Source of the DNA: Thermosulfurimonas marina
GTDB lineage: Bacteria; Desulfobacterota; Thermodesulfobacteria; Thermodesulfobacteriales; Thermodesulfobacteriaceae
Length of the DNA: 64,000 bases
Direction of reading: 5' to 3'
Assembly: GCF_012317585.1 (NCBI RefSeq)
Contig: NZ_CP042909.1
Span: 1,240,001-1,304,000 of the forward strand
Below the pieces are notes generated by a model. It ran no database searches and had not been told where the DNA came from. It saw only the letters and a program-made list of their open reading frames with translations. Within the stretch, counting starts at the first letter, position 1. Each line of letters starts with the position of its first letter. Positions 23,336-25,442 of the stretch are shown here, piece after piece. The translations under genes were made by a program, and so were the position numbers.

Positions 23336-23749
23336 TTAGTAGACCAGGACCCGCTTGCTCTCCCAGATCATCTGGTAGAAGGCTTTGCGGCCGGCAGGTG
23401 TGACCTTGGGAGAATGCACTCCGTGCATTCCTAGGGCCTTCTTTCAGCCGTAAAGTCTGCCCCCGGCCCGGAGGAAGTTCTCAATTTTTTGGGCCAGGTC
23501 CACGGGTTCGTTCCCGGCCTTGAGGATCTCCACCCCCTTTCCGGTGAGATAGACCTTTACTTGGTCTCCTTGAGAGAGGGCGAAGTTGGCCAGGCGGAAG
23601 GCCTGCCAGGCCGTTTCTTGATCATTGGTGGTAATGACTATTAAAAGCCCTCTTTGAGCGGCCGAAGAGGATAAAGCTCCTCCCACAAGCCCTATCACCA
23701 AAAATACAAAGATAAGGGTCCCGAGTCTGGCCTTTCTCATCTTTTTCAC
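23336..23749 (-). CDS. DsrE-like sulfur-relay protein, candidate selenoprotein with in-frame UGA
   Basis: The frame from ATG 23749 encodes an N-terminal hydrophobic signal/anchor (TLIFVFLVIGLVGGAL) and a DsrE/DsrF-like domain: GLLIVITTNDQETAWQAFRLA, KVYLTGKGVEIL, FLRAGGRLYG. It then meets TGA at 23446-23444 and continues without interruption as KKALGMHGVHSPKV... AFYQMIWESKRVLVY to TAA 23336, giving 137 residues. The tail has the normal DsrE ending (compare LYELVQESDRVVSF in the neighbouring paralogue). The UGA falls exactly at the first Cys of that paralogue's ACGTC. A SECIS-like hairpin follows. An AGGAGGTG site precedes ATG. If UGA were a stop, the protein would lose its redox residue and last helix. 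Confidence 0.78.
23402..23438 (-). promoter_or_regulatory. Candidate bacterial SECIS element for the DsrE-like gene
   Basis: Thirteen bases after the UGA, a perfect 8-bp stem GAATGCAC/GTGCATTC closes a GGA loop (G first). The loop begins 21 bases after UGA, inside the range known for SelB-dependent elements. A lower stem GGCC/GGTC can close the structure across an internal loop. It lies within the coding frame, as bacterial SECIS elements do. Confidence 0.65.
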
Positions 23750-23763
23750 CTCCTCTGGGGAAT

Positions 23764-24065
23764 TTAAAAACTCACGACCCGATCACTTTCTTGGACCAAT
23801 TCATAGAGGTCCTTGAGGGTGGAAAGGGCTTTTCCCGTAATTTGAGACAGGTCCCGCAGGCCAGGATCTCTCCCCCGGCAGAAAGGAAGTCCTCTAGTTG
23901 TTTGCGCACGTTGAAGGGGCCTTCGGCGATTTCCGGGGCCTCCACTCCTTCCCCCATGAGGAAGACCTTTACCTCATCTCCGGCTTTGAGGGCGAAATTG
24001 GCCAGTCTGACCGCATTCCAGGCCTTTTCAGCCTCTTTAGTGGTGATGATGATTCCGAGTTTCAT
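23764..24065 (-). pseudogene. DsrE-like protein, one base short of an intact frame
   Basis: ATG 24065 (GGAGGTCTCCC upstream) starts a soluble DsrE-family protein: GIIITTKEAEKAWNAVRLANF, KVFLMGEGVEAPEIAEG, LEDFLSAGGEILACGTCLK. After the AAA run (plus 23841-23843) the frame reads an unrelated tail, while the neighbouring frame gives ITGKALSTLKDLYELVQ then ESDRVVSF and TAA 23764. One extra A restores ACGTCLKITGKALSTLKDLY and a 100-residue protein. CxxC (CGTC) is the likely persulfide/redox site. It is a close paralogue of the candidate selenoprotein downstream and overlaps the DUF5714-like gene by 29 bases. Confidence 0.8.
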
Positions 24066-24638
24066 GGGAGACCTCCTTTAGAGGATTTGTACCGGGCCAG
24101 TAGGGGCATTTGCTCTTGCGGCAGCCGTGGGGATGTCTTTCAAACCAGAGACAGGTCACCGGTCCGACCCTTAAGGGGTATTGAGGGAAACTCCGGCGCA
24201 AGAAGTCCACCGCCAGGTCCAGGGCCTTCCAGAGATAGGCCTTGCAGCAACCGGGGCCGGTGATCTCCGCCAAGGCCCTAGAGAGGTTTCCGGCAATTGC
24301 ATGACCTCTCGCTGGGGAGAATCCGTGCCGCACCTGGAGCCCAGGAGATGGGCCAGGACCGCCCCCAAGGCGGGGACTATCCCGCAGACCCCGGTGAGGC
24401 CGCAGAATCCGCTTCGGGCTTGAACCTGGGTGCGGGCGAAGACCTCCAGATCCCTTTCGGAAAGGGTATAACCTGCGGCGGAAAGGGCTCCCAGAAGGGC
24501 CGCGGCCGCGAGATAGGCGTGCTCACAACCGAAGACCTCCTGTCCCTGATCAAGATAACGGAGGGGAAGACCGCAAAAGGCGCAATGTACAACCCCCAGG
24601 GCTGGGGGTTTTGCGGTTTGGCGTCATTGGCGAATCAT
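24037..24638 (-). pseudogene. DUF5714-like Cys-rich protein with an early in-frame UGA and a one-base frame break
   Basis: From ATG 24638 (GGGAGGG upstream) the frame reads M-I-R-Q then TGA 24626-24624, and stays open: VVHCAFCGLPLRYLDQGQEV, FGCEHAYLAAAALLGAL, SGFCGLTGVCGIVPALGAVLAHLLG. Near 24298-24305 the homology passes to another frame: AIAGNLSRALAEITGPGCCK, FLRRSFPQYPLRV, RKSKCPYWPG. One missing base explains the shift and would give about 200 residues. CxxC, CxxxxxC, CC and a terminal CxxxxCPY are as in DUF5714 proteins of methanogens and sulfate reducers, whose role is unknown. Without UGA readthrough, no normal start codon precedes the CxxC. Confidence 0.65.
24591..24610 (-). promoter_or_regulatory. 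Hairpin 13 bases after the early UGA of the DUF5714-like gene
   Basis: AACCCCCAG and CTGGGGGTT form a 9-bp perfect inverted repeat with two bases between (more realistically an 8-bp stem with loop GCCC, G first). Position relative to the UGA matches the DsrE-like SECIS candidate. It could instead be a 5' regulatory hairpin; it lacks a U tract, so it is not a terminator. Confidence 0.45.
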
Positions 24639-24720: not shown

Positions 24721-25164
24721 TCAGGATTGGCGGAGGAGTAGACGATGGCGCAGGTAGGTCGCGCCCTCCAGAGGGACTCTCAGACGACGGGCCAGTTCGC
24801 GGTCCGAAAGGTGGGGTTCCTTTTGGAGGACTTTTTGGGCTTCGGCCAGGAGTTCGTCAAGCCACTCCTCAAAAAGGAGCTTGAGCCCCTCGGGGACCTC
24901 CTCGGGGAGAGTTTCGGTCTCGCTCACCGTGGAGACCATGGCTCGGCAGACCGAACGCGGGTCCACGCCCGCGTCAAAGCACTTGGCCAGTCAGTAGTAG
25001 ACCATGGAGGGGACCCGCCCCTCCTCTCCCCGAAAGATCTCTAGAAAAAGTTCCTCCTGGGCCTTTTCGTCCAGGATCTCGTAGAGCTGGCTGAGGAGGG
25101 TCCGCAGGGCAGAACGCATTTCTTCCACTTCGGCCTGCTGGAGCCATTCCTGAAACTTGGTCAT
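24721..25164 (-). CDS. Unknown protein, candidate selenoprotein with in-frame UGA
   Basis: ATG 25164 overlaps the ArsR stop (TGATG). The frame reads 57 residues of helical, acidic protein (TKFQEWLQQAEVEEMRSALR, LYEILDEKAQEELFLEIF, RVPSMVYY), then TGA 24993-24991. It then continues in the same frame as LAKCFDAGVDPRSVCRAMVS ... ELARRLRVPLEGATYLRHRL to the stop at 24721. The total is 147 residues, with helical composition and codon usage unchanged across the TGA. U58, C62 and C72 could form a redox or metal site; the C-terminal 35 residues resemble a helix-turn-helix. I recognise no family. If UGA is a stop, two orphan fragments result. A SECIS-like hairpin follows. Confidence 0.65.
24949..24988 (-). 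promoter_or_regulatory. Candidate SECIS element of the unknown UGA-containing gene
   Basis: ACGCGGG pairs perfectly with CCCGCGT (plus a G-U pair at the base) around a CGTGGA loop with G in second position. The stem starts 16 bases and the loop 23 bases after the UGA. GGCC/GGTC can again form a lower stem, as in the DsrE-like element. Confidence 0.6.
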
Positions 25165-25442
25165 CAGGTATCCTCCCTCAGGGATTGGGCCAGGCGGAAG
25201 AGCTCAAAGACCCGGGAACTTTTCAAACGGTAGAAGACGTAAGGCCCTTCTTTGCGGCTGGTGACCAGGCCAGCGAGTTTGAGTTCCCTCAGGTGATGGG
25301 AGACCAGGGGCTGGGAGAGTTCCAGCCGGCTCACCAACTCTCCCACCGAAAGCTCCCCCTCCTTCAGGGCCTCAAGGATTCGCAGGCGATTTTCCTCCCC
25401 CAGGGCCTTAAAAAAATGGGCCAGGGTCTTGAGCTCTCCCAT
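25164..25442 (-). CDS. ArsR-family transcriptional regulator
   Basis: A 92-residue winged helix-turn-helix protein: FFKALGEENRLRILEALKEG, LSVGELVSRLELSQPLVSHHLRELK (recognition helix) and LVTSRKEGPYVFYRL (wing). It has no Cys, so a classical thiolate metal site is lacking; a persulfide-, oxidant- or other-ligand sensor is possible. It heads the operon with the unknown UGA-containing gene (TGATG overlap) and diverges from the aminotransferase gene. TATAAA ends 6 bases before its ATG, so its mRNA may be leaderless. Confidence 0.88.
   Translation of the reverse strand: MGELKTLAHFFKALGEENRLRILEALKEGELSVGELVSRLELSQPLVSHHLRELKLAGLVTSRKEGPYVFYRLKSSRVFELFRLAQSLREDT

Follow-up and report, generated by a model that had tools for sequence, protein, structure and literature searches.

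The ArsR-coupled gene at 24721-25164 of the Thermosulfurimonas marina window, interrupted by an in-frame UGA at codon 58, is a real selenoprotein gene, as judged from sequence comparison; its 147-residue product almost certainly is a selenoprotein of the TsoA superfamily belonging to a separate thermodesulfobacterial branch. The role we prefer for this protein, a selenocysteine-based sensing partner of the adjoining ArsR repressor, is proposed tentatively, at well under even confidence, and the full explanation (selenoprotein identity together with sensor role) falls somewhat short of an even chance.

All coordinates refer to the window, the whole 64,000-nt stretch of DNA analysed (NZ_CP042909.1, GCF_012317585.1, positions 1,240,001 to 1,304,000; Table 1). 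The preliminary description of this DNA had placed the start codon at 25164, overlapping the ArsR stop, in a frame open for 147 codons save one TGA at codon 58, with a hairpin behind that TGA; each of these points held on the window sequence. The last A of the ArsR stop (TGA 25166-25164) is the first base of the selenoprotein ATG (25164-25162), an overlap of one base, and the frame ends at TGA 24723-24721, with TGA 24993-24991 as its sole internal TGA. The hairpin, ACGCGGG-CGUGGA-CCCGCGU (24974-24955), starts its stem 16 nt past the UGA and places its loop 23 nt past it; a rule test run on the sequence found agreement with the published rules for bacterial SECIS elements (bSECIS-type). Selenocysteine machinery was found in the same genome (1.76 Mb, one contig): tRNA-Sec (83.9 bits), SelA (620 bits), SelB (379 bits) and SelD (360 bits), the last itself with an in-frame UGA.

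Table 1 Features of the selenoprotein locus (window coordinates)
Feature	Position	Strand	Description
ArsR-family repressor gene	25164..25442	-	92 aa, no cysteine; PF01022 9.4e-17
TsoA-like selenoprotein gene	24721..25164	-	147 residues, predicted Sec at 58, Cys62, Cys73
UGA codon 58, predicted to be read as selenocysteine	24991..24993	-	TGA present in all relatives
bSECIS hairpin	24955..24974	-	7-bp stem, loop CGUGGA, 23 nt after UGA
Putative C-terminal helix-turn-helix region, ~residues 101-147	24724..24864	-	Model pLDDT 80-95, HTH matches
Decayed DUF5714 (MbdU-like) gene	24037..24637	-	PF18978 in two frames, NF045648
DsrE-family gene, C-terminal frameshift vs homologues	23772..24065	-	PF02635
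Second DsrE-family gene, in-frame UGA 23444-23446	23336..23749	-	PF02635 3.4e-10 across UGA

We examined conservation of the UGA among relatives at several depths. A search with the read-through protein found a homologue in 10 of 99 relatives, each with exactly one in-frame TGA, and a search with the TsoA model across the phylum led to 45 genomes; in all 44 aligned full-length members (8 from the close branch and 36 further) TGA stands at the Sec58 column. An independent scan, which used one genome per species and peptide patterns leaving out the Sec position, returned relatives mostly from Desulfobacterota (one is labelled Nitrospirae), and TGA occupied the Sec column in 80/80 loci examined, the best 80 of 123 relatives. 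The column aligns across the TsoA superfamily with conserved flanks, invariant residues lie on both sides of UGA58, and the UGA is kept across the phylum in all relatives. Neither Cys nor Trp occurred at the Sec column among these best 80 of 123 relatives or the 44 aligned members; the Cys homologues at residue 58 that the preliminary description had anticipated were thus not found, apart at most from an ambiguous Cys in distant Met-rich relatives, whose alignment at this column is uncertain. The outcomes that had been named as refuting the selenoprotein reading (Trp, an unrelated residue, or two separate proteins) were looked for in the relatives and none was seen.

We then evaluated the hairpin as a SECIS element. 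Its fold energy is ordinary for GC-rich DNA (z -0.69), in which single-sequence folding is uninformative and was rejected as proof; codon shuffling gave p 0.026 for the window gene and weak values for individual relatives (p 0.06-0.11). Among eight members of the close branch with 45-66% amino acid identity to the window protein, compared over 43 invariant-residue columns (Met and Trp left out), a single codon was used in all eight genomes at 6/43 columns, namely the five stem codons and the codon right after the UGA; single-codon use was therefore 5/5 for stem columns against 1/38 for the other invariant-residue columns (hypergeometric chance ~6e-6), and both loop codons vary. In the canonical family the SECIS stem sequence differs from that of the window branch, and there is covariation between columns 20 and 33, numbered from the T of TGA (A-U 16, G-C 15, G-U 2, A-C 0; p 1.5e-7, uncorrected for the relatedness of the sequences). 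Across 17 distinct sequences, 98% of stem pairs were standard, versus at most 52% in slid controls, and three pairs had changed on both sides. Conservation of the UGA, frozen stem codons and covariation in the wider family place the hairpin above chance. Freezing within the branch and compensatory changes within the family thereby bear out the earlier SECIS claim and, with UGA present in every full-length relative, the selenoprotein reading itself.

Two sequence-level alternatives bear on this identity. If UGA58 were a true stop, the locus would be a degraded gene or encode two separate small proteins; translation from an internal GTG (24966) would yield an 81-aa product, and decayed genes do lie nearby in the window, but the phylum-wide UGA, the invariant residues on both sides and the conserved SECIS make this reading very improbable. 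A base-calling error or a Trp codon at position 58 has a negligible probability: the identical TGA recurs in independently sequenced genomes (80/80 of the best 80 of 123 relatives) with no TGG, nothing was found in support, and genome comparison refutes it.

The preliminary description recognised no family and suggested a new selenoprotein family, which proved wrong. NCBIfam NF045695 (TsoA, 'LULAXC motif selenoprotein') matches residues 5-142 of the window protein at 6.8e-27 and matches all 44 aligned relatives, and a review lists TsoA, Tso denoting an operon of three selenoproteins (PMC13188914); because of this match and this listing, the family counts as already known. TsoA is attributed to Haft and Tolstoy 2025, as cited in that review (PMC13188914). 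The window protein shares with TsoA full-length homology, Sec at the same column, the UxxxC and GVDP motifs, a SECIS shortly 3' of the UGA and an ArsR gene directly upstream. It differs in scoring 94.6 bits against an equivalog cut-off of 170, and in reading YULAKC where the model has LULAxC; U, L, A and C are kept, and the first motif residue is Tyr in all eight branch members. Its hairpin is GC-rich, with the loop 3 nt farther from the UGA; a stem so shifted and GC-rich plausibly suits a thermophile. TsoB and TsoC adjoin TsoA in canonical genomes, whereas profile searches of the T. marina genome and its branch gave nothing above cut-off for TsoB and no match at all for TsoC. In the tree the window protein groups with TsoA-type sequences, its clade (support 100) standing apart from the canonical TsoA clade (support 98); among its named members are Thermosulfurimonas dismutans and further genomes of Thermosulfurimonas or Thermodesulfatator. 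The low score, YULAKC, the 3-nt hairpin shift, the lack of TsoB and TsoC and the DUF5714/DsrE partners lead us to place the gene in a separate Thermosulfurimonas/Thermodesulfobacteria branch of the superfamily. The family is not new; branch and operon are a variant outside the curated TsoA model, extending this recently named family to a thermophilic branch.

The coupling to ArsR proposed earlier was confirmed well beyond the window, with an ArsR gene immediately preceding the selenoprotein gene on its strand in 75/75 loci having enough upstream sequence. Only ArsR is shared as a partner by canonical TsoA, the window branch and the Met-rich distant relatives; the invariant partner of TsoA is therefore ArsR, not TsoB or TsoC, which points to a regulatory role. 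The window ArsR contains no cysteine, and no conserved cysteine was found among the partner ArsR proteins (best column 20/78). SqrR and BigR are thiol-based ArsR sensors. The window ArsR resembles them in its fold family and in a likely sulfur-related operon; it differs in having no cysteine, with the reactive residues sitting in the neighbouring selenoprotein.

Sec58 and Cys62 are invariant in the alignment and Cys73 is nearly so. The predicted model is all-helical (pLDDT 76.7 overall, pTM 0.44) and most confident in its C-terminal helix-turn-helix (pLDDT 80-95), less certain in the middle and at ~60 around the Sec region; in it, Sec58 and Cys62 are spaced by one helical turn and Cys73 lies on the next helix. 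Fold comparison retrieved the DNA-binding domains of Lrp, FapR, DeoR and MarR over 40-51 residues at Z 5-7, values which by themselves are no proof of a DNA-binding domain. HTH_24 matched the window protein weakly (E 0.056, below the Pfam cut-off) and reached the cut-off only in one short relative; a sequence search of solved structures gave only weak helix-turn-helix matches and one designed repeat protein. Structure and fold searches found no enzyme fold for the selenoprotein.

In the mechanism we propose, UGA58 would be decoded by SelB and Sec-tRNA through the hairpin behind it, and the co-translated selenoprotein would act as the sensing partner of the ArsR repressor. Sec58, Cys62 and Cys73, on two adjacent predicted helices, may constitute a chalcogen site reactive towards sulfane sulfur, selenium or a soft metal, and the putative C-terminal helix-turn-helix may touch DNA or ArsR. 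With a cysteine-free repressor, it would be the selenoprotein that lets the signal in, and the signal would set expression of the downstream DUF5714, DsrE and DsrE-Sec genes; the sensor assignment is inferred from a repressor without a thiol beside a partner with Sec, two Cys and a putative helix-turn-helix. The more specific idea of a two-protein switch, in which a Sec-containing helix-turn-helix protein senses sulfur, selenium or metals on behalf of a cysteine-free ArsR, appears doubtful at present. To our knowledge, there is no example of a selenocysteine-based transcription regulator; if true, the proposal would mean that selenocysteine is used in signal sensing for transcription. The signal is likely reactive sulfur, considering the DsrE and TsoB neighbours and the sulfur-disproportionating hosts (PMC12998232), with metals and selenium as alternatives.

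An ArsR-controlled enzyme or metal chaperone would give the identical gene order, and both are serious rivals to the sensor role. The protein could be a selenol/thiol redox enzyme or a sulfur carrier working with DsrE sulfurtransferases, with Cys62 or Cys73 as the resolving residue for Sec58 and ArsR merely as operon regulator. The DsrE and DsrE-Sec neighbours, the TsoB rhodanese/DsbD partner of the canonical operon and the judgement that most uncharacterized selenoproteins are likely redox proteins (PMC13188914) all speak for this; set against the missing enzyme fold, the helix-turn-helix-like C-terminus and a UxxxC rather than the usual UxxC motif, we regard it as somewhat unlikely. Less probable again is that the protein binds soft metals or metalloids, as a chaperone or a resistance factor, with Sec and Cys serving as the ligands: its ArsR partner, the Met-rich distant relatives that likewise adjoin ArsR and the DUF5714/MbdU neighbour, annotated 'metal-binding', fit such a function, but no conserved metal transporter or reductase lies beside the gene in the branch, and a Cys-free ArsR is unlikely to be a metal sensor on its own.

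Two groups of Met-rich relatives were observed. Three short ones (L164, L165 and L193, in G308 and G268) adjoin ArsR and carry an in-frame UGA of their own (MVER-U-MQMC), behind which stands a strong hairpin showing a single change from U-G to U-A; they are possibly another selenoprotein form, the correspondence of their UGA column to TsoA Sec58 being ambiguous. Three others (L073, L049 and L077, in G277, G352 and G101) are free of UGA, are related to the C-terminal half and come immediately after ArsR; their Met-rich stretch suggests soft-metal binding.

Downstream, the branch shows the order DUF5714, DsrE and a second DsrE that carries a UGA of its own; order and content vary somewhat. The window DUF5714 gene, intact in relatives, lacks ~65 internal residues and changes frame near 24330. 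A UGA in MIRQUR (near 24624, upstream of the DUF5714 remnant) was rejected as a selenocysteine codon, since nothing equivalent to it occurs in relatives and their DUF5714 genes have no UGA. In the first DsrE gene the frame changes after CGTCLKLRE, the expected C-terminus LYELVQESDRVVSF lying in another frame, which reflects either decay or an assembly indel. The second DsrE gene encodes a hydrophobic N-terminal segment, and its UGA stands in the context YGUKKA. DsrE-like selenoproteins of the PF02635 group are listed with the motif UxxC (PMC13188914); the window gene resembles them as a DsrE protein gene with an in-frame UGA and differs in having YGUKKA and no UxxC. DsrE proteins with a UGA at one site recur adjoining TsoA across the family, and because its UGA is kept in branch relatives and many other TsoA loci, the gene likely encodes a DsrE selenoprotein that lacks the listed UxxC.
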